A DNA stretch of 64,000 bases from Anaerolineae bacterium (GTDB taxonomy: Bacteria > Chloroflexota > Anaerolineae > Anaerolineales > Anaerolineaceae), in NCBI GenBank assembly GCA_013178295.1, contig JABLWW010000004.1, positions 124,001 through 188,000 on the forward strand, written 5' to 3'. Made by a program: the position numbers and the translations under genes. Below the pieces are notes generated by a model. That model saw only the letters and a program-made list of their open reading frames with translations, was not told where the DNA came from and searched no databases. Shown here one piece after another: positions 5,655 through 44,113 of this stretch; within the stretch, counting starts at the first letter, position 1, and each line of letters begins with the position of its first letter.

Positions 5655-6999
5655 TTGTGCTCTTTTTGTGCAGCGGGCGCGCAGGGACGCCAACCACTGT
5701 CGTTTCGGGCGGCACATCATGGGTGATAACAGCACCCGCGCCAGTATGCGCGCCTTTCCCAACACGAACCGGGGCTACCAGCATCGTATCACTGCCAATG
5801 AAGACATCATCTTCAATAACCGTAGGGTGTTTTTTAACACCATCATAATTACAGGTGATTGTTCCACAACCAATGTTGACATTTTCCCCAATCGTCGCGT
5901 TGCCGATATACGAGAAATGTCCCATTTTTGTGCCCGGGCCAAGATAGGAATCTTTGACCTCGCCAAAGTTCCCTAGATGCACTCCCTTTCCAAGATGCGC
6001 ACCTTTACGTAAATGACCATAAGGCCCTATCTCAGAACCATCCTCCATGATGGCACTTTCCAAAAAAGAGGCAATCACATGACAACCTTTGCCAATCTGG
6101 GTATCCTCAATGACACTATTAGGGCCCAACACGCACCCCTCGTCAATGACCGTATGTCCTTTTAACATGGTGTTCGGGTAGATCACCGTGTCGCGCCCAA
6201 TTCTGACCTCTGTATCAATATATACTGTCTGAGGATCAACCATCGTAACACCCTCTTCCATCCAGCGTTGATTGATGCGCCTGCGCATCAGCGCCTCAGC
6301 CTCTGCCAGGTGTACACGGTTGTTGATGCCCACGGTCTCTGAAAGTTCGCTCACCGGCACAGTCGCAACATTCAGATGATCTGCAACCGCAATTTGGACA
6401 ATATCAGTAAGGTAGTACTCTCCTTTAGGAGACTTCTCAACACGGCGCAAAGCATTCCACAGCCAGTCGTCCCGTGCACAGTATACACCCACATTAAGCT
6501 CTCCCAATGCAAGCTGTTCAGGCGTCGCCTGCGCTTCTTCAACAATCGCCTCAACGTTTCCATCCTCACTGCGGATAATCCGCCCAAAGCCGCGCGCTTC
6601 GCTGGAACAAGCCGTCAATATGGTGAGAGGGCCCTCGTTCCTCTTCTGAACCTCGACCAGACGCTCAACCGTTTGTGCGGTCAACAGGGGCAAGTCCGCA
6701 TTGATAATCAACACCAGGTCTGTATGACCCGCTACCTGTTCACTGGCAGCCAGGACGGCATGGGCAGTGCCAAGTTGCTGTTCCTGTATAGCAAAACGTG
6801 CCATAGAACCGACCGCCTTTTGCACTTCTTCGGCGCCGTGACCAATGACGACCACCGGTGTCTGATCGCTGACGGTCATGGCAGCACGCAGAGGGTAACT
6901 GAGCAAAGGTTGCCCGCACAAATTGTGCAGGACTTTCGGCAGGCGAGATTTCATTCGCGTGCCCTGTCCGGCTGCCAGAATGATGGCAGTAATTTTCAT
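5647..6999 (-). CDS. glmU: Bifunctional GlmU: UDP-GlcNAc pyrophosphorylase / GlcN-1-P acetyltransferase
   Basis: 450 residues, full family length. The N-terminal nucleotidyltransferase domain carries LAAGQGTRMKSRLPK (8-22); the C-terminal half is a left-handed beta helix built from hexapeptide repeats, with the acetyltransferase segment GHFSYIGNATIG and NYDGVKKHPTVI. It makes UDP-N-acetylglucosamine for peptidoglycan in two steps. ATG 6999 has AGAGGAG about 8 bases upstream; the 22-residue upstream extension is not family-like and was dropped. It is the first gene after tRNA-Gln on this strand and its stop overlaps the next start. Confidence 0.95.
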   Translation of the reverse strand: MKITAIILAAGQGTRMKSRLPKVLHNLCGQPLLSYPLRAAMTVSDQTPVVVIGHGAEEVQKAVGSMARFAIQEQQLGTAHAVLAASEQVAGHTDLVLIINADLPLLTAQTVERLVEVQKRNEGPLTILTACSSEARGFGRIIRSEDGNVEAIVEEAQATPEQLALGELNVGVYCARDDWLWNALRRVEKSPKGEYYLTDIVQIAVADHLNVATVPVSELSETVGINNRVHLAEAEALMRRRINQRWMEEGVTMVDPQTVYIDTEVRIGRDTVIYPNTMLKGHTVIDEGCVLGPNSVIEDTQIGKGCHVIASFLESAIMEDGSEIGPYGHLRKGAHLGKGVHLGNFGEVKDSYLGPGTKMGHFSYIGNATIGENVNIGCGTITCNYDGVKKHPTVIEDDVFIGSDTMLVAPVRVGKGAHTGAGAVITHDVPPETTVVGVPARPLHKKSTSE

Positions 7000-7108
7000 C
7001 GTCAACACTCCTCTAAAAACAAATAACCACAAAGGCTCGATCAGCACGGAAATACGCTGTAGCAAGCTGCCTGCTAGGGAGTCCCTGTGGCTTATTATTC
7101 AGCAAAGG

Positions 7109-7179
7109 CTGGGGCGCTCGGATTCGAACCAAGATCCACAGATCCAAAGTCTGGTGTGCTGCCATTGCACTACGCCCCA
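7109..7179 (-). tRNA. tRNA-Gln (anticodon TTG)
   Basis: A cloverleaf folds on the minus strand. Acceptor stem TGGGGCG/CGCCCCA pairs in all seven positions, D stem GTGC/GCAC, anticodon loop CTTTGGA with TTG at the centre, and T arm CTTGG-TTCGAAT-CCGAG. The discriminator is G, as in tRNA-Gln. The CCA end is not encoded (GCCT follows). The first anticodon-stem pair (27-43) is a C-U mismatch; the remaining four pairs are good. Confidence 0.93.
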
Positions 7180-7203
7180 GTATTCTCATACCAAGAGGAC
7201 TTG

Positions 7204-7232
7204 ATTTTAACATAAAAGTCCAGATTGGGCAA
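7204..7232 (-). promoter_or_regulatory. Promoter candidate for tRNA-Gln
   Basis: On the minus strand, TTGCCC (7227-7232) and TAAAAT (7204-7209) are separated by 17 bases, and the expected start lies about 15-20 bases before the mature tRNA. It sits in the gap after the response-regulator stop, so the tRNA need not depend on read-through. Confidence 0.5.
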
Positions 7233-7238
7233 AGGCTG

Positions 7239-8300
7239 TTAGATTTCGGGCGCCAGCCCCAGCTTCTTTGCTTGCTCATAAGTAAGAACATCAGGGCTGG
7301 CTGGTTCAATGTCCAGATTATGTTCAGCCGAGCTCCAAAAGCTTTCAGCTTCCTCCAGGCGAATACCTGCTGCCTGCGACAGGATTTCTCCCAGAGCAGC
7401 AACAGCTTCGGGTGATTCTATCTCCTCTGCTTCCGGAGGAGGCTGTCCAGCGGGCGCCAATCCCTTCTCAGAAATACCCTTGATGCCCTCAGCAGACACA
7501 AGCCCCTGCTTCTGAAGATAGCATAGCAATTCGGCCTGGGCATCAAAGGTCTTTTGAATAACATGCTCCAGACTCACCCTGGCAACAGGAACATCGATTA
7601 TCAGAATCAATGCAAAGTCTACCACCGCCGCCAAGATGAAATAATATGCTGCGGTTTGGTACATCTGAAGGTTACCAGGCAAGCTCATATCCATCAACCT
7701 TGCCAGGCGTATGCTGGTGTTCAGCGCTGCCATAATTGGGGCAGCCCACTGCTCTGAAAAATTTTCAAAGGGCATATCTCCGGATTGGGCAACCAGACGC
7801 CCGCGTTCATCAAGAAGGAGAACCCCGCGCGCCGGAATTTCCTGGCAAAGCTGGGCTAGAACTTCCGACAGACCTCTTGGCGTTGCCAGCGCAGACTCCT
7901 CCTGGGCTGTAGGCTGCGCTTCTGCTGCGACTTCAATGCCCAGACAATTGCGCACTGTCTCCACAAACACCGAAATATCCATCGGCTTGAGAAGAAATTC
8001 ATTCACATTCAACGCCTTTGCCTGATCCACCAGTGTGTCGTCTGTCAAACCAGTAATCATAATCACCTTGAGCTGGGGGATACGCTTACGAATTTTCTGT
8101 ACCAGTTCCAAGCCTGTCATGCCCGGCAGGCGGATATCGGTAATCAGCAGGTCAATGGGAGGCTCGCGGGTTGCTTCCAGCATGGCTTCTTCGGCGGAAG
8201 GGACAATGCTGGTGAGCATATTGGGCAGCGAAATACTCAGCGCTGCCTGCAGAAGACGGCCAAGATCAATTGCATCATCAACAATCAGTGCACGTGGCAT
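7239..8300 (-). CDS. Response regulator with a C-terminal roadblock- or GAF-like region
   Basis: 353 residues. Residues 1-120 are a receiver domain with acidic pocket Asp8/Asp9, phosphoacceptor Asp55 (LLITDIRLPG), Thr83 and Lys105. A second globular region (about 140-265: GVLLLDERGRLVAQSGD ... YYFILAAVVDFALILIIDV) has the strand pattern of roadblock/LC7 or GAF-like domains and no DNA-binding motif. The rest is an acidic tail. Start: ATG 8300 has AGGAG with 8-base spacing; the GTG at 8309 overlaps that site. No histidine kinase is nearby. It probably acts by protein-protein contact, for example on a small GTPase or kinase, but this is inference. Confidence 0.75.
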   Translation of the reverse strand: MPRALIVDDAIDLGRLLQAALSISLPNMLTSIVPSAEEAMLEATREPPIDLLITDIRLPGMTGLELVQKIRKRIPQLKVIMITGLTDDTLVDQAKALNVNEFLLKPMDISVFVETVRNCLGIEVAAEAQPTAQEESALATPRGLSEVLAQLCQEIPARGVLLLDERGRLVAQSGDMPFENFSEQWAAPIMAALNTSIRLARLMDMSLPGNLQMYQTAAYYFILAAVVDFALILIIDVPVARVSLEHVIQKTFDAQAELLCYLQKQGLVSAEGIKGISEKGLAPAGQPPPEAEEIESPEAVAALGEILSQAAGIRLEEAESFWSSAEHNLDIEPASPDVLTYEQAKKLGLAPEI

Positions 8301-8319
8301 GTTTTCCACTCCTGCTTAT

Positions 8320-8348
8320 ATTTTACTGAAAATGCTTTCTTTTTCCAA
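8320..8348 (-). promoter_or_regulatory. Promoter candidate for the response regulator
   Basis: TTGGAA (8343-8348) and TAAAAT (8320-8325) on the minus strand lie 17 bases apart, just upstream of the response-regulator ribosome binding site and downstream of the terminator that ends the molybdenum hydroxylase operon. Confidence 0.5.
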
Positions 8349-8391
8349 ATAAAATTGTGCAAATTATTTTGGTAACAACTGCAGCAGTTAC

Positions 8392-8427
8392 AAAAAAGCC
8401 TCTCACAAGTTTGCACCTGTGAGAGGC
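8392..8427 (-). terminator. Rho-independent terminator of the molybdenum hydroxylase operon
   Basis: A perfect 10-base stem, GCCTCTCACA / TGTGAGAGGC with a 10-base loop, is followed on the minus strand by six T residues. It lies 18 bases past the stop of the last Mo subunit, in the right direction. Confidence 0.9.
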
Positions 8428-8445
8428 GAGAGAAGGGAGAAGAAA

Positions 8446-10767
8446 CTACTTCCTGCTTTTTATGGCTTTTAGCACCCTTTCAGGCGTCAGAGGCAGCTCA
8501 TGAATACGAACACCTATTGCATCAGCTACGGCATTGGCTACCGCTGGGGCAGCTGGTGTGAGCGAAGGCTCACCAATACCTTTAGCGCCAAACGGGCCAA
8601 CGCCTGTGCCGGATTCGAGAATGATCGCCTGCGTGGTGGGAATATCACAACTGGTTGGGATGAGATACTCTGCCAGGTTGCGGGTCTGCATAATACCTTC
8701 CTTGACAATCACATCTTCCATCAGCGCATATCCTAACCCTTGTGCTGCCCCACCCTGAATTTGCCCGGTAGCGGTGGCATAGTTGATGGCGCGCCCGATG
8801 TCATGGCAGGCAACGCTTTTCAGAAGGGTAACTTCGCCGGTTTCAATATCCACAGCTACCTCAACTGCCATTGAGCCAAAGGTGAAATCGGGCCAGATGC
8901 GTCCCTGACCGGTTTCGGGGTCAATAGGATCAGTGAAGGGGGCTTTGAACATGGCAAGATCGTTGAGCTTGATACCCTCAGCAGCGCATATCTTTGCCAT
9001 TTCGGCCAGTTCTATGCTCTGGGAAGGGTCTTTTTTGACAAATATCTTGCCATCGGCAATGTCCAGTTCGCTGGGGTCTTCCTCAAAATACTTGGAGGCA
9101 CGATCAAGCACCGCGTTGCGCACTGTGGTAGCTGCCATGACCGTTGCGTTCCCGGACATGTAAAGCTGGCGTGTGGCAGTGGATGTGCCAGCCAGCGGGG
9201 TTACAGCCGAATCGGTGTAATAGACACTGACACGTTCCATCGGTACGCCCAAAACTTCACTGGCAATCTGGCAAAGTGAGGAGATTTGCCCTGCCCCCAA
9301 ATCGGGGACACCGGCGCGGATGATCACACTGCCATCCAGTTCCAGACTGACCCAGGCATGCGAGGTGTCATGCAGCCAGGTGATGCGACCATAGCTTTGC
9401 ATATAAGAGGAAAATCCCTGACCAATGACCGTGTGATCGTTTGGCGGGGGAGTTTTTTCGCCAAGCGCTTCCAACGCTCGCGTGGCACACTCTTCAAGCC
9501 AGGCAGCGCTTTCGATGACCTGCCCGGTACAGGTGGTATCACCAGTGCGGATGTAGTTGATTTTGCGGAATTCGAGACGATCCATCCCCAATGCCTTTGC
9601 ACACTCGTCCATTTGCTGCTCATAAGCAATGGCTGCCTGCGCTGCGCCAAACCCGCGAAATGCGCTGGAGAAAGGACCATTGGTCGCAACGGAATAGCTG
9701 TCTATTTTGACGTTGTCCACCCGATAGGGGCCAACCGCTGTGCCGGTACTGTACAGCAACACGTAGGGGCTGAGATAGACATACGCGCCCGAGTTAGAGA
9801 TAATTTCGATTTCCGCGGCAGTGATACGCCCATTCTTTTGCAAGCCGGTTCGATGTTTGATAATATAAGGATGACGTTTACCATGGGCAAGCAGGGATTC
9901 TTCACGGGTGTATTCGAGACGCACCGGTCGGTTGGTTTTCATTGCCATCAGCCCAACAAATATTTCTACCGTGATGTCTTCCTTTCCGCCAAAACCACCG
10001 CCCAGCAAAGTGCCCTGGATGTGTATCTTGTTTTGCGGTATTCCCAAAGCCAGAGCAATGGAGCGGAAGTGCTCAACCACCTGTGTATTGACGCGGATGT
10101 TCACCACGCCCTGATCATCCACCCAGGCAACCCCTGACTCAAGCTCCAGGTAGGCATGGTCAATATAGGGCATCTTAAACGTATTTTCCACCACAATATC
10201 CGCCGCGGCAAAACCTTTGGCAATATCACCTTTGCGTACTTTGTAGCGTGCCACGATGTTATCGGGAGGGGTAACCACCGGAGCACCCGGCTTCATTGCC
10301 TCCAACGGATCAAACACGGCTGGCAGTGGTTCATATTCGATTTCAATGAGTTTGAGTGCCTTTTCGGCAATCTCCAACGTCTCGGCAGCCACCAGAGCGA
10401 TCGCCTCACCCTGATAGCGCACCACATCCTTTGCCAGAACAGGGGCATCGGAGCCTGCGCGGCGCTTTTGTCCGGTCTGACCAGGCATATCAGTCACCAG
10501 AATGGAAGCGGGAAGATCATCCGCTGTCAGCACACAGGCAACACCCGGCAGCGCCTGGGCTTTGCTGACATCTAGTTTTTTAATGCGCGCATGCGGCACA
10601 CTGCTGCGGAAAACCTTGCCATGTAACAAATTGGTGGGGTAATAATCTCCGGAGTAAACCGTGGCGCCCACACATTTTCCCAATGCTTCCACACGGCGCA
10701 GCGGTTTGCCAATCTGGCGCAGTTCGGGGAGTTTTACCTCAGGTAGGGGTTTGGCTTTATACGTCAT
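8446..10767 (-). CDS. Xanthine dehydrogenase-family molybdenum-binding subunit (distal copy)
   Basis: 773 residues, full length for the large Mo subunit. It has the MPT/substrate motifs in classic form: GGGFGGKED (256-264), AFRGFGAAQ (369-377) with the substrate-contacting Arg, and GAKGIGEPS with catalytic Glu733. The family hydroxylates purines, other N-heterocycles or aldehydes using water, passing electrons to 2Fe-2S and FAD subunits. The intact Arg and Glu favour a purine-like substrate, but the substrate is not proven. It is the last gene of a five-gene operon; its ATG overlaps the 2Fe-2S subunit stop by four bases. This copy, the 160-aa 2Fe-2S protein and the 286-aa FAD protein form a standard three-subunit set. 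Confidence 0.87.
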   Translation of the reverse strand: MTYKAKPLPEVKLPELRQIGKPLRRVEALGKCVGATVYSGDYYPTNLLHGKVFRSSVPHARIKKLDVSKAQALPGVACVLTADDLPASILVTDMPGQTGQKRRAGSDAPVLAKDVVRYQGEAIALVAAETLEIAEKALKLIEIEYEPLPAVFDPLEAMKPGAPVVTPPDNIVARYKVRKGDIAKGFAAADIVVENTFKMPYIDHAYLELESGVAWVDDQGVVNIRVNTQVVEHFRSIALALGIPQNKIHIQGTLLGGGFGGKEDITVEIFVGLMAMKTNRPVRLEYTREESLLAHGKRHPYIIKHRTGLQKNGRITAAEIEIISNSGAYVYLSPYVLLYSTGTAVGPYRVDNVKIDSYSVATNGPFSSAFRGFGAAQAAIAYEQQMDECAKALGMDRLEFRKINYIRTGDTTCTGQVIESAAWLEECATRALEALGEKTPPPNDHTVIGQGFSSYMQSYGRITWLHDTSHAWVSLELDGSVIIRAGVPDLGAGQISSLCQIASEVLGVPMERVSVYYTDSAVTPLAGTSTATRQLYMSGNATVMAATTVRNAVLDRASKYFEEDPSELDIADGKIFVKKDPSQSIELAEMAKICAAEGIKLNDLAMFKAPFTDPIDPETGQGRIWPDFTFGSMAVEVAVDIETGEVTLLKSVACHDIGRAINYATATGQIQGGAAQGLGYALMEDVIVKEGIMQTRNLAEYLIPTSCDIPTTQAIILESGTGVGPFGAKGIGEPSLTPAAPAVANAVADAIGVRIHELPLTPERVLKAIKSRK

Positions 10768-37960: not shown

Positions 37961-38851
37961 ATGGCAGAGGAAATTGTCGCATCATTTGCTGTCAAAAAGG
38001 GGTTGGCGCAAATGCTGAAAGGTGGTGTCATCATGGATGTGGTTACACCGGAGCATGCCCGTATTGCCGAAGACGCAGGCGCCGTGGCGGTCATGGCGCT
38101 GGAGCGCGTCCCGGCGGATATCCGCGCTCATGGCGGCGTGGCACGTATGAGCGATCCGGAACTTATCCTCAAAATTATGGACTCCGTTACCATTCCAGTC
38201 ATGGCGAAATGCCGCATCGGTCATTTTGTTGAAGCTCAAATTCTGGAAGCCATTGGCATTGATTACATTGACGAATCGGAGGTGCTCACCCCAGCCGACG
38301 AGGAACATCATATCAACAAGCACGCCTTCAAAGTACCTTTTGTCTGCGGCTGCCGCAATCTGGGTGAAGCCCTGCGGCGTATTGGCGAGGGAGCAGCCAT
38401 GATCCGCACCAAAGGCGAAGCTGGCACCGGCGACGTGGTCGAAGCAGTACGTCATGCACGCACTGTGCTGGGGGAGATACGCCGTTTGCAGGCGCTCGCG
38501 GAAGAAGAGGTGATGGCTTTTGCCAAACAGATTGGGGCGCCGTATGAGCTGTGTATGGAAACGCGCAATTTAGGCCGTTTGCCAGTGGTGAATTTCGCCG
38601 CTGGCGGCATTGCCACACCAGCAGACGCCGCATTGATGATGCAGCTAGGGGTAGATGGGGTTTTCGTTGGGTCAGGCATTTTCAAGTCCGGCGATCCCGC
38701 CAAACGGGCTGCTGCTATTGTCAAAGCCACAACCCACTACCGCGATGCCCACATCCTCGCTGAAGTCAGCCGCAACCTGGGCGAACCTATGGTAGGCAGA
38801 CAAATATCTGCCATCCCCGAGGGAGAGCTGATCGCACAGCGCGGCTGGTAA
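37961..38851 (+). CDS. pdxS: Pyridoxal 5'-phosphate synthase subunit PdxS
   Basis: 296 residues, full length. The TIM-barrel motifs are clear: [31 protein letters not shown] near the start, [15 protein letters not shown], and [19 protein letters not shown]. It condenses ribose 5-phosphate, glyceraldehyde 3-phosphate and ammonia from PdxT into PLP. AAAGGAG precedes ATG 37961. Operon with pdxT (18-base gap). Confidence 0.97.
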
Positions 38852-38869: not shown

Positions 38870-39508
38870 ATGAAGATTGGGGTGCTGGCTCTGCAAGGGG
38901 CTTTCATTGAACATTGCCAGATGCTGGAGCGTTTGGGCGTGCAGTCATACCAGGTGCGCCTGCCGCAACAGCTGCAGGGGTTAGATGGGCTAATTATTCC
39001 CGGTGGGGAATCGACCACCATTGGCAAACTGGCGCAAGATTACAATTTCATCGAACCGCTGCGCGCTTTTGGTGCCACAAAGGCAATTTGGGGCACCTGC
39101 GCTGGCGCAATCCTGTTATCCAAAGACGCCCACCGCGACCAGCCGCTGCTGAGATTGATGGATATCACCATCGTGCGCAACGCCTTTGGCAGACAGGTGG
39201 ATAGTTTTGAGATTGCGTTGGAAATGCCCTGTCTGAGTCAGAACGGCAGCCAGGCGCCGCCCTTTCACGCCGTTTTCATCCGCGCGCCGATCATTGAAAC
39301 GGTGTCCGCTGATGCCCGCGTCCTGGCGCGTCTGGCGGACGGGCGCATTGTCGCTGCACAACAGAAGCATTTTCTGGCAACTTCATTTCACCCAGAGCTA
39401 ACGCAAGACGACCGGTTGCACCGTTACTTCCTGCGAATGGTGGAAGACGCCCAAAAGACACATGAGCAGCGCGGCGCTGTGCTGGTGATTAACAAAGAGA
39501 ATAGCTAA
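38870..39508 (+). CDS. pdxT: Pyridoxal 5'-phosphate synthase glutaminase subunit PdxT
   Basis: 212 residues, slightly long for the family because of a short C-terminal tail. The triad is complete: Cys77 in GTCAGA, His174 and Glu176 in FHPEL. LIIPGGESTTIGKL is the oxyanion/substrate loop. It supplies ammonia to PdxS. Its stop overlaps the stop of the convergent aminotransferase gene by four bases. Confidence 0.96.
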   Translation: MKIGVLALQGAFIEHCQMLERLGVQSYQVRLPQQLQGLDGLIIPGGESTTIGKLAQDYNFIEPLRAFGATKAIWGTCAGAILLSKDAHRDQPLLRLMDITIVRNAFGRQVDSFEIALEMPCLSQNGSQAPPFHAVFIRAPIIETVSADARVLARLADGRIVAAQQKHFLATSFHPELTQDDRLHRYFLRMVEDAQKTHEQRGAVLVINKENS

Positions 39509-41029: not shown

Positions 41030-43078
41030 ATGAAAATTGACCAGGTGATCAAACGTGATGGAAGCATTGTGCCCTTTGACCGCAAGCGCATCGAAAATGC
41101 CATCTACGCCGCAGCGCGGGCTACCAATTCCAGCGAGACACGCCTTTGGGCAGAAACCCTTTCGTGGGCAGTCGTGGGTCTGTTGGAGCAACGCTGGCAA
41201 ACCCGTGTCAATCCCCCTCACGTTGAAGACATCCAGGACATTGTCGAAGAAATATTGATCAAATCCGGCAACCCTGTGATCGCCAAAGCCTATATTCTTT
41301 ATCGCGAGAAGCGTTCTGAGGCACGCTCGACGCGCCAAATGCTGCTCGATTACGAAAAACTGGTTGAGGATTATTTGGGGGAATCGGACTGGCGGGTCAA
41401 CGAAAACAGCAACATGAACTACTCGCTGCAGGGCTTAAACTTTTATCTCTCATCCACCATCGCTGCACAGTACTGGCTGCAAAAGATTTATCCGCCGGAG
41501 GTGCGCCGCGCTCACACTGAAGGCGATTTGCATCTGCACGATCTGGGCATGCTCTCCGTCTATTGCTGCGGGTGGGATCTGCATGACCTGTTGCTGCAAG
41601 GCTTTGGCGGCGTGATGGGCAAAACCGAGAGCAGCCCACCAAAACATCTGCGGACAGCGCTCGGACAACTGGCGAACTTCTTCTATACCATGCAAGGCGA
41701 GTCCGCTGGAGCAGTAGCAGTTTCCAACTTTGATACCTATCTGGCGCCCTTTATCCGCTACGACCAGCTGGACTATAAAGGTGTCAAACAGGCTATTCAG
41801 GAATTTATATTTAACCTCAACGTCCCTACGCGGGTTGGCTTTCAAACCCCCTTCACCAATATAACGATGGATCTGACACCGCCTGCCATGCTGCAGAACC
41901 AGCCTGTCCTCATCAGCGGTGAATACCAAAACGCCACCTACAGCGAATTTCAGCCAGAGATGGACATGCTCAACCGCGCCTTTGCCGAGGTGATGCTGGA
42001 AGGCGACGCCAAAAAGCGCGTTTTCACCTTTCCAATCCCTACATACAATATTACTCCTGACTTCAATTGGGAAACAGAGCAGCTTGAACCCCTGTGGCGC
42101 ATGACGGCACGTTATGGCATTCCTTACTTCGCCAATTTCGTTAATAGCGATATGAAACCGGAGGACACGCGCAGCATGTGCTGCCGGTTGCGACTGGATA
42201 ACCGCGAGCTGCGCAAACGCCTGGGAGGGTTATTTGCCGCGGCTCCCCTGACAGGCTCTATCGGTGTGGTTACGATAAATATGGCACGCTTGGGCTTTGT
42301 CGCCCAAACAGAGGCGGAATTCCGCCAGCAGCTAGAACACCTGATGGAAATTGCCCGCACCAGCCTGGATATCAAACGAAAGACTATCGAAAACTTCACA
42401 CAGCAAGGGTTATATCCATATAGCCGCCATTATCTGCAGGGAGTGTACCAGCGCACAGGTTCGTTCTGGAGCAATCACTTTTCCACCATTGGTCTGGTCG
42501 GGATGAACGAAGCCTGCCAGAACCTGATAGGGGTGGATATTGCCCATCCTGATGGAAGGCTATTTGCAACACGCACATTAGAATTTATGCAAAGTGTCAT
42601 CATACGCTTTCAGGAAGAAAGCGGGCATCTGTTTAACCTCGAAGCCACACCCGCCGAGGGGGCCTCTTATCGGCTTGCCCGCGCTGACAAAAAACGTTAT
42701 CCGCAAATCATCACCGCCGGTACGCCCGAAATCCCCTACTACACCAACTCCACCCAGCTGCCCGTCAGCTTCACCGACGACATTTTCGAAGCCTTGGAGC
42801 ACCAGGACAAACTGCAAACACTCTATACAGGCGGCACGGTGCTACATATCTTTCTTGGCGAGCAGCTAGACGACTGGCGCCAGGCGCGGCGGCTGGTGCG
42901 CTTGATAGCAGAAAATTATCATCTGCCATATTTCACCCTTACGCCCACTTTCAGCATTTGCCCGGTGCATGGCTACATCTCCGGCGAACATGCCTTTTGT
43001 CCATACGATCATACCCCTGAAGCACTGGCGCTCTATGGAGTGCCCTTCCAGGAAACCAGCCAGACACTCTCTCAATGA
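41030..43078 (+). CDS. nrdD: Anaerobic (class III) ribonucleoside-triphosphate reductase, catalytic chain lacking the glycyl-radical domain
   Basis: 682 residues. Residues 1-95 are an ATP-cone; the ten-stranded barrel follows, with active-site cysteines in SVYCCGWDLHD (179-180) and RSMCCRLRLD (384-385) and the segment TGSIGVVTINMARLG. Near the end, CPVHGYISGEHAFCPYDH gives zinc-ligand candidates Cys644, His647 and Cys657. The chain then stops after 22 unrelated residues without the usual C-terminal RVxGY glycyl-radical segment. That segment is in the next gene (43112). Two stops in the same frame (TGA 43076, TAA 43088) separate them. The enzyme makes deoxyribonucleotides without oxygen. GGAG precedes ATG 41030. 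Confidence 0.93.
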   Translation: MKIDQVIKRDGSIVPFDRKRIENAIYAAARATNSSETRLWAETLSWAVVGLLEQRWQTRVNPPHVEDIQDIVEEILIKSGNPVIAKAYILYREKRSEARSTRQMLLDYEKLVEDYLGESDWRVNENSNMNYSLQGLNFYLSSTIAAQYWLQKIYPPEVRRAHTEGDLHLHDLGMLSVYCCGWDLHDLLLQGFGGVMGKTESSPPKHLRTALGQLANFFYTMQGESAGAVAVSNFDTYLAPFIRYDQLDYKGVKQAIQEFIFNLNVPTRVGFQTPFTNITMDLTPPAMLQNQPVLISGEYQNATYSEFQPEMDMLNRAFAEVMLEGDAKKRVFTFPIPTYNITPDFNWETEQLEPLWRMTARYGIPYFANFVNSDMKPEDTRSMCCRLRLDNRELRKRLGGLFAAAPLTGSIGVVTINMARLGFVAQTEAEFRQQLEHLMEIARTSLDIKRKTIENFTQQGLYPYSRHYLQGVYQRTGSFWSNHFSTIGLVGMNEACQNLIGVDIAHPDGRLFATRTLEFMQSVIIRFQEESGHLFNLEATPAEGASYRLARADKKRYPQIITAGTPEIPYYTNSTQLPVSFTDDIFEALEHQDKLQTLYTGGTVLHIFLGEQLDDWRQARRLVRLIAENYHLPYFTLTPTFSICPVHGYISGEHAFCPYDHTPEALALYGVPFQETSQTLSQ

Positions 43079-43111
43079 TCAACTTCTTAATTCATCTTGA
43101 CGAGGTATACC

Positions 43112-43315
43112 ATGGAGCCATTAATGGATATAGAATTTAAAATTGAGCAATTTGCCACTCGCAACCAGACAACCAAGCGTGTACAGTCATTGGCACTGCG
43201 CGTTCCGTGCGAGGTTTATTCGCGTGTGGTGGGCTACTTGCGCCCGGTGCAAAACTGGAACGTTGGCAAACAGCAGGAATTCAAAGAACGCTGTAACTTC
43301 CGCATCCGCGAATAG
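43112..43315 (+). CDS. Stand-alone glycyl-radical domain of NrdD
   Basis: 67 residues. Residues 33-62 match the C-terminus of class III ribonucleotide reductases: CEVYSRVVGYLRPVQNWN, then GKQQEFKERC, with Gly41 as the expected radical carrier in RVVGY. Cys33 sits where the last zinc ligand of fused NrdD lies, so it could complete the zinc site in trans. Residues 1-30 (MEPLMDIEFKIEQFATRNQT...) are not NrdD-like as far as I recall. ATG 43112 has GAGG six to eight bases upstream; a TTG at 43097 is in frame. It lies between nrdD and the activase. By analogy with the YfiD/GrcA spare part of pyruvate formate-lyase it could dock onto the catalytic chain. Confidence 0.85.
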   Translation: MEPLMDIEFKIEQFATRNQTTKRVQSLALRVPCEVYSRVVGYLRPVQNWNVGKQQEFKERCNFRIRE

Positions 43316-43324
43316 AAAGAGAAC

Positions 43325-44113
43325 GTGAAAGCAACGCACCTCAAGCAGGGGATCATTGAACATATTCCGCCAACTCATACCTGGTATGCACCGGCTAGCA
43401 GACAGGCTCTTTCAATGGACTTCAAGGGCTGGATACGCACCTCGCTGATCGAATACCCCGAGCATATCGCTTCGGTTTTATTCTGCAGCGGTTGCGACTT
43501 CCGTTGCCCAATGTGTCATAACGCCCATCTGCTGCTTGAATCCAATACGCCCGTCATCGAACCGGAACAAATTGCCGAATTCGTGGCGCGCCGCCGTGGA
43601 TTGGTAGATGGAATCGTCATCAGTGGCGGCGAGCCGACACTGCGACCAGGGCTGATTCCTTTCCTGCAGCAGGCACGTTCATGGAAAATAGACATTAAGC
43701 TGGATACCAACGGCTACCACCCAGAAGTGCTGCAAGTTTTGCTGAATGAGAAGCTGGTGGACTATATCGCCATGGATATCAAAGCGCCTCCCGAAAAATA
43801 TCCAGCGCTGACAGGTGTACCTGCGGTGGATATCAACCGCATTGAAAAAAGCATGGCGCTGATTCGCGCTTCGGGTCTGGCATACGAATTTCGTACAACC
43901 GTTGTACCGGGCAGTTTGTCCATAGAAGATATTGTAAAAATTGCAGGCTGGATACAGGGCGCACAGTGTTACATCTTACAGCAGTTTCGCCCGATTTCTA
44001 CCCTTGACCCTGCACTGCAACAGCTTTCCCCATATCCTCGCCAACTCTTATACCAGATGGCAAATGCTGCAAAACCTTTTGTTGAACTGGTGCGAGTCAG
44101 AGGGATAGAATAA
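43325..44113 (+). CDS. nrdG: Anaerobic ribonucleotide reductase activating enzyme (radical SAM)
   Basis: 262 residues of the NrdG2/PflA-like type. The radical SAM motif is Cys57-x3-Cys61-x2-Cys64 (GCDFRCPMC), then ISGGEPT for SAM binding, KLDTNGY and DYIAMDIKAP. It should abstract hydrogen from the glycine of the small protein just upstream. GTG 43325, ten bases after that gene, has AGAAAGAGA before it. ATG 43415 (MDFKGWIRTS) matches the usual family start, so the true N-terminus is open. If the GTG is right, there are about 30 extra N-terminal residues. Confidence 0.9.
   Translation: MKATHLKQGIIEHIPPTHTWYAPASRQALSMDFKGWIRTSLIEYPEHIASVLFCSGCDFRCPMCHNAHLLLESNTPVIEPEQIAEFVARRRGLVDGIVISGGEPTLRPGLIPFLQQARSWKIDIKLDTNGYHPEVLQVLLNEKLVDYIAMDIKAPPEKYPALTGVPAVDINRIEKSMALIRASGLAYEFRTTVVPGSLSIEDIVKIAGWIQGAQCYILQQFRPISTLDPALQQLSPYPRQLLYQMANAAKPFVELVRVRGIE

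Follow-up and report, generated by a model that had tools for sequence, protein, structure and literature searches.

Two NrdD chains probably make up the class III ribonucleotide reductase of an Anaerolineae bacterium, with the glycyl-radical loop on its own gene

Can an anaerobic ribonucleotide reductase carry its glycyl radical on a protein separate from its catalytic chain? This question is raised by an nrdD locus in a 64,000-nucleotide stretch of the genome of an Anaerolineae bacterium, the whole of which is called the window here. In the excerpts of the class III literature consulted, the radical domain is described as part of the NrdD chain. An initial annotation of the window had proposed that a 682-amino-acid (aa) NrdD lacking the RVxGY segment is followed by two stops and by a GAGG-ATG start that opens a 67-aa open reading frame (ORF) with the radical glycine at position 41, and all of these coordinates check. 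We found that the anaerobic class III ribonucleotide reductase of this bacterium is encoded as two NrdD chains, with the radical loop on its own gene. The features of the locus are as follows.

41030..43078, + strand: nrdD large (catalytic) chain, 682 aa, with ATP-cone (PF03477), barrel (PF13597), finger-loop and candidate Zn site, without the radical loop
42959..43012, + strand: candidate zinc ligands C644 (42959-42961), H647 (42968-42970), C657 (42998-43000) and H661 (43010-43012), predicted from sequence
43076..43090, + strand: two stops, TGA 43076-43078 and TAA 43088-43090, both in the nrdD frame
43102..43105, + strand: GAGG, Shine-Dalgarno-like, 6 nucleotides (nt) ahead of the small gene's ATG at 43112
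43112..43315, + strand: small glycyl-radical subunit gene, 67 aa, CEVYSRVVGYLRPVQNWN, matching PF13597 533-562
43208-43210 and 43232-43234, + strand: codons of Cys33 and of the radical Gly41, within the small gene
43325..44113, + strand: nrdG activase (NrdG2 type, radical S-adenosylmethionine), 262 aa, GTG start, TIGR02495 and PF04055

The large chain covers positions 1-525 of the 562 in PF13597 (595.6 bits), with the final 37 profile positions absent, and its homology to the catalytic domain of class III NrdD is seen in a score of 1033.5 bits against NF006126. Its finger-loop MCCR occupies residues 383-386, of which M383, C384, C385 and R386 are all invariant in the alignment, and its C-terminal end is CPVHGYISGEHAFCPYDH, followed by 21 more residues. 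The tail ORF lies in the same frame as nrdD, behind both stops. The 67-aa protein matches PF13597 positions 533-562 with an E-value of 1e-9, over the gathering score, and TIGR02487 positions 551-579; R38, G41, P45, V46, G52, K53, E56 and R60 are invariant among the aligned small proteins. The RVxGY radical-glycine loop of class III NrdD is thus present, but on a separate protein. Since the radical glycine sits off the barrel chain, where it is usually found (a usual rather than a strictly definitional trait of NrdD), the locus is classed as a variant of class III NrdD. As the initial annotation had claimed, the activase lies directly downstream: nrdG begins 10 nt past the stop of the small gene, and its ORF scores 199 bits against the NrdG2 model TIGR02495 (cut-off 131). 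In the whole genome, which is 3.95 Mb and rated 97.8% complete, a PF13597 search matched only the large chain and the small ORF, and no further NrdD, including a second full-length nrdD, was found. The small protein is the only copy of the NrdD radical loop in the genome and is therefore considered an obligate subunit. The genome also has one PF02867 match, an 857-aa ORF that reads as a class II NrdJ, the class being judged by eye.

We estimate a probability of about 0.88 that these genes encode a functional class III ribonucleotide reductase composed of two NrdD chains and the activase NrdG. The large chain would contribute the ATP-cone, a catalytic barrel and a putative zinc site complete in itself, while the 67-aa chain would be the glycyl-radical loop, reaching into the large chain's barrel. 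NrdG would install the radical on Gly41 of the small chain in trans, and the radical would then move on to the cysteine of the finger-loop (MCCR), as happens in one-chain enzymes. We infer the stable assembly of the split pair, its docking geometry, the in-trans radical installation and its activity.

Other genomes with a shortened NrdD and a small radical ORF were sought and were found in several lineages (loci and genomes carry our L and G numbers). The genome pools were non-random samples, with 80 loci being the closest relatives of the query. The split form is the predominant one in the Halanaerobium and Desulfuromonas orders and in a Thermodesulfobacteriales class, and it is common in the class of the source bacterium. 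In the source's family, where 101 genomes were searched, 4 of the 17 NrdD-bearing genomes are split; a fifth candidate (G072), cut by a contig end and of another NrdD type, stands outside this count. The 43 NrdD-bearing genomes among 396 of the source's class comprise 24 split, 17 fused, one tail-only (G258) and one cut (G304), the split ones including G338, in which no tail was detected, and G476, whose large gene is cut. Of the 38 genomes in the order of Halanaerobium kushneri, 36 have a match: 33 of them carry a large gene and a separate tail, one a lone tail and two gene fragments, and none of the 36 has a full-length fused NrdD match. The class of the Thermodesulfobacteriales record L012 has a separate tail in 36 of 38 matching genomes, the others being fused (G679) or a fragment (G695); only the end of the large gene was seen in G687 and G692, and G701 combines its split pair with a second, uninterrupted match to positions 276-560. 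The order of Desulfuromonas sp. BM509 has matches in 120 of 136 genomes. At least 20 full-length hits there cross 1-5 stops, whereas among the matches listed those of G605 and G554 are uninterrupted and the remaining near-complete large hits stop short of the tail; G563, G566, G568 and G639 each give one weak match only. In contrast, 56 of 60 genomes of the Syntrophus order match, and all 56 have at least one stop-free NrdD hit reaching position 558 or beyond. Further split pairs come from records whose titles name Spirochaetes, Fermentibacteria, WOR-3 and Buchananbacteria.

The layout of the two genes varies. The small gene lies on a separate contig in five cases (L003/G486, L008/G491, G442, G425 and G380) and kilobases from the large gene in G109 and G389, while in some split relatives the tail is out of frame with the large gene or overlaps it. 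In H. kushneri (L022, 6001-8971), the order is unlike that of the source locus: the large gene (6001-8049) is followed by NrdG2 (8050-8748), and the small gene begins at 8843. Second, unlinked small radical genes (L327, L329-L332) are present in the split genomes G506, G646, G713, G716 and G691. Split large chains often carry long in-frame insertions of intein-like size (L167, L168, L170, L171, L172, L264), commonly at profile position 156/157 or at about 250-260, and many of these are in hits of the Halanaerobium order and of the L012 class.

Sorting by a tail profile divided 152 distinct NrdD ORFs of the source type into 70 split, 81 fused and one cut, after 15 others (other types and fragments) had been left out. 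The tail is in the same locus for 65 of the 70 split ORFs and on another contig for L003, L008 and L129, and none was found for L004 and L202. A quick maximum-likelihood tree was built from 61 representatives (30 split, 31 fused) with the tail excluded; on it, the split/fused label changes at least 6 times, 5 of the changes being forced by starred branches, compared to about 20 with shuffled labels; the tree gives the number of these changes, not their direction. One fused ORF (L114) falls within a split clade and has a split-type CPYDH zinc half, a linker and then a split-type PCEVYSR start, a build shared by its near-copy L117, which is off the tree. Another (L196) is fused via a longer linker and stands next to the Cupriavidus necator pair on the tree. 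Such linker-fused forms join the same pieces, which is a classic sign of two proteins working as one. The initial proposals that the radical glycine must act in trans and that the small protein is an obligate subunit thus gain support from the recurrence, from the linker-fused relatives and from the lack of another NrdD in the genome.

The 32-codon core of the small ORF has a median ratio of nonsynonymous to synonymous substitution rates (dN/dS) of 0.19 over 343 pairs, which are related, non-independent and in many cases near saturation, and a +1-frame control of the core gave a median of 1.55 over 1655 pairs. A core could be taken from 64 small proteins, and all of them keep the radical glycine. 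The core of the small gene is under purifying selection, and the gene is not a chance ORF.

The fit of the two pieces was modelled with AlphaFold2 as a read-through, with the large chain and the tail as one chain, in two models whose alignments include fused rows. Solved class III NrdDs are those of Prevotella copri (8p2s), phage T4 (1h7a) and Thermotoga maritima (4u3e). Compared to 8p2s_B, the models gave Z-scores of 33.7 and 33.4 with root-mean-square deviations of 2.9 and 2.8 over 560 and 558 residues, and both are predicted to place the tail where the solved NrdDs carry theirs. Alignment to T4 1h7b extends to 742/587, so that Gly735 of the model (Gly41 of the small protein) would fall on Gly580 of T4 if the end is gapless, the numbering of the T4 radical glycine being that of PMC2795772 (this and the other papers given by PMC number are cited from excerpts). 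Several points weigh against a two-chain enzyme. The radical loop has a predicted local distance difference test score (pLDDT) below 50 in both models (at residues 732-737 of the first model and 670-735 of the second), and a second, larger alignment brought no rise in AlphaFold2 confidence for it; the fused alignment rows also bias the modelled docking. No small gene was found in G487 (L004), one of 21 split genomes in one set, and G630 (L202) of the Desulfuromonas order shows the large match alone, perhaps through incompleteness in both cases. In addition, the genomes with unlinked small genes are drafts, often metagenome-assembled, in which binning can err. Because the loop pLDDT is below 50 and fused rows guide the fold, the models show compatibility only.

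The initial annotation had also suggested that Cys33 of the small protein supplies a missing zinc ligand. This did not hold: by its sequence, the large chain appears to contain a self-contained Cys2His2 set of four candidate ligands with nothing missing, and Cys33 is off the zinc-cysteine register. A pattern search found CxxH...CxxC in 77 of the 81 one-chain relatives and four candidate ligands in 61 of the 70 split large chains, 56 of these with CxxH...C..[x]H like the source locus, while 9 of the 70 have no match; a match shows candidate ligands and not metal, and the pattern is misplaced in L186. Cys33 (in PCEVYSR) aligns with an extra cysteine of fused enzymes that have the full CxxH...CxxC, for example L107 (CPVCVTDQSCEVYSR), and as a zinc ligand in the source clade it is rejected on this alignment and on the in-chain candidate ligands. 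Among relatives of Desulfuromonas, some large chains are without the fourth ligand (CPNNQ, CPHVS), and their small proteins have a KCxxKTEVYSR cysteine in the register of the fused fourth ligand, the register being judged by eye. Because of this register, an in-trans zinc ligand from the small protein is plausible and may hold in these relatives.

Radical tails encoded on their own are also found in cells with an intact enzyme and in viruses. An intact parent besides the small protein is absent from the source genome and present in six others. Besides their fused NrdD, two of the 17 fused genomes of the source's class (G195 and G136) encode a free tail in a frame of 78 aa; these frames (L161:1740-1976 and L162:1791-2027) have a similar extra C-terminal tail, and each is transcribed convergently with a formate/nitrite transporter gene (PF01226). 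In the Syntrophus order, four genomes (G811, G774, G796 and G807) have a free tail besides a fused NrdD, with an upstream CxxC...CxxC in the tails of G811, G774 and G807 that is absent in G796; G771 of the same order gave only a short further tail match. The ribbon-type free tails of this order are 112-118 aa long (L323:3963-4301, L324:4281-4616, L326:5541-5894). Among the ten neighbours tested at the four loci no virion genes were found; the free tail of L326 adjoins amidohydrolase and DUF4139 genes, and one neighbour protein at L325 had matches to families of DNA-repair and anti-restriction proteins. The Syntrophus order often has second NrdD copies, and in one such protein (L155, G509:C81) the C-terminus ARITQYYS replaces R(V/I)xGY, so that its radical glycine looks to be replaced by Gln.

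Virus contigs, scanned with an alignment of the small proteins, gave 491 coding matches. The best 80 of the 491 loci (L243-L322), a few of which are on contigs that look near-duplicate, comprise 70 whose stretch has a free tail but no large chain, 4 with both, 5 fused and 1 cut. Whole-record searches covered 46 of the 70 free-tail contigs, all of which had the tail only, and three of the four contigs with both, in all of which the large chain was again present; any of these records may be a fragment. Examples are L281:9776-10114 and L262:9896-10216, and some viral tails have an N-terminal CxxC...CxxC ribbon. The archaeal virus ANMV-1 also encodes a free tail (L217:2680-3114), and a search of its 38 kb gave no large chain. 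One of 73 viral loci was mis-cored; in the other 72, the 31-residue core keeps the radical glycine and shares 71-87% identity with the closest cellular tail. Of 8 free-tail virus loci tested, 5 have portal, terminase or tail genes; the neighbours are a DNA polymerase in L291 and a glycosyltransferase in L316, and L289 gave no match among the proteins tested. The nearest cellular tail is a fused one for 10 of 16 viral tails with two upstream CxxC compared to 14 of 55 without (Fisher p 0.014), which gives only a hint that the viral ribbon is linked to fused-type tails: two single-CxxC loci were excluded, one locus is mis-cored, large-chain loci were included, and the rows are not independent. 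The many virus contigs with the tiny protein alone suggest an exchangeable radical part. A separate faecal phage contig (L219, MT835493.1) has an NrdD ORF with a C-terminal extension that is glutaredoxin-like by eye (TKTCPNCKMAK).

Could the source locus be explained without two working chains? If it were an assembly error, or a decayed nrdD whose tail is open by chance, both stops being in frame with the tail would fit, and the class II enzyme could cover for a dead class III enzyme. However, the same break is found in many genomes with differing intergenic sequences, the small gene is preceded by a ribosome-site-like sequence of its own and has a core under purifying selection, and the zinc and finger-loop motifs are intact, which makes this extremely improbable. 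An assembly error or pseudogene was rejected on the recurrence across lineages, and a lone broken copy, as considered in the initial annotation, is also contradicted by the lack of an intact nrdD elsewhere in the genome. One long chain made via stop-codon read-through, recoding or splicing would agree with the position of the tail in frame behind 1-5 stops in the source locus, in G206 and in at least 20 Desulfuromonas-order genomes with a full-length hit. Against this, the two stops of the source locus are different, and elsewhere the tail is out of frame, overlapping, on another contig or, in L022, past a complete nrdG. Since small genes lie on other contigs or behind nrdG, read-through is excluded as a general route, and we regard a single long chain as very unlikely.

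The two-chain enzyme may also have a reason behind it, which would add to that reading and not replace it: the split may be favoured since the piece destroyed by oxygen is cheaply replaceable, with the small subunit as an exchangeable cartridge made separately. Exposed to oxygen, glycyl-radical enzymes are cleaved at the glycine, and the piece that pyruvate formate-lyase (PFL) loses is replaced by YfiD and Y06I (PMC8683613). The extra unlinked small genes in five split genomes (G506, G713, G716, G691, G646) and the free tails beside fused NrdD and in virus contigs would fit this idea. On the other side, only 2 of the 17 fused genomes of the source's class have a free tail, many split lineages are known as anaerobes, and the split could be neutral; we hold the idea tentatively, at somewhat less than even odds. 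The viral tails could instead act as decoys, capturing the activase or large chain of the host and shutting its enzyme down, as a free tail could compete with the host partner and all 46 records searched whole lack the large chain. This is unlikely, as the viral cores keep the radical glycine and a high identity to cellular tails, phages need deoxyribonucleoside triphosphates, and T4 carries a spare part for PFL (PMC8683613). We see an even chance that the NrdD radical loop is an exchangeable module, a separate subunit in some lineages, with free tails that replace or boost the loop of a host NrdD.

Compared to known systems, the source locus resembles the PRK08270/NF006126 branch of class III NrdD in its ATP-cone, barrel, finger-loop cysteines, Zn motif, loop sequence and adjacent NrdG, and differs in that its radical loop is a separate protein and its chain is cut after the Zn site. 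The split is not new to databases, as RefSeq names the small gene nrdD. Three-gene operons in which the large chain ends past the Zn site and is followed by a 58-66-aa small 'nrdD' and then the activase are present in Cupriavidus necator H16 pHG1 (WP_011154155.1, WP_011154154.1 and WP_011154153.1), Bradyrhizobium japonicum p2S06B and Sulfuricurvum kujiense pSULKU01. Their tails are EVWTRVMGYHRPV (C. necator, B. japonicum) and MVYTRVMGYHRPV (Sulfuricurvum), and they differ from the source in having a CPxC zinc half and in belonging to another NrdD branch on the tree. The nrdDG operon of C. necator pHG1, which is split in RefSeq, was called essential for complete denitrification (PMC2864759). 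Rarity of the split is not borne out, since the arrangement is widespread and its small gene already named.

YfiD/GrcA and T4 Y06I are likewise small free glycyl-radical proteins that complete a large chain in trans (PMC8683613). The source protein differs in that it belongs to NrdD, not PFL, and is an obligate sole loop and not a repair part; no PFL radical-domain homology was found, with NRDD the only significant family in Pfam and NrdD models the only ones in NCBIfam. It would work like YfiD as a free radical loop, yet it is outside the YfiD family. The likeness to YfiD/GrcA drawn in the initial annotation suits the free radical proteins of viruses and of cells with an intact NrdD, and is less apt for the obligate pair. 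The catalytic unit of a ribonucleotide reductase also extends over two genes in NrdJa/NrdJb of Pseudomonas aeruginosa (PMC4520616, PMC9669993); unlike the source pair, this is a B12 enzyme, and its split-off piece is not a glycyl-radical domain. Phage nrdD genes split by introns or broken frames have been described (PMC3653736). In the open-licence literature, with most subscription papers outside its scope, we found neither an NrdD radical domain as its own gene nor an NrdD spare part.

Around the source locus, the upstream ORFs at 37961-38851 and 38870-39508 resemble pdxS and pdxT by eye only. No NrdR-type box was found in the window within 3 mismatches of the consensus, and promoter and terminator scans of the window were near the shuffled expectation.

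The interest of these results lies mostly in the breadth of the split and in the viral and cellular free tails. A natural split in cultured species is a ready system for radical installation and transfer between two proteins, and it lets the radical loop be swapped or labelled with the catalytic chain untouched. Only the spare parts of PFL had been validated according to PMC8683613, which speculates on others, and the free tails make it testable, as a question from that paper, whether glycyl-radical enzymes besides PFL have them. The free tails of phages, of an archaeal virus and of cells with an intact NrdD are, by analogy with YfiD and Y06I for PFL, candidate spare parts for NrdD. If the loop is indeed an exchangeable module, it would be a candidate system of spare parts for a glycyl-radical enzyme besides PFL, in which the loop would be replaced after oxygen damage or the host NrdD boosted during infection.

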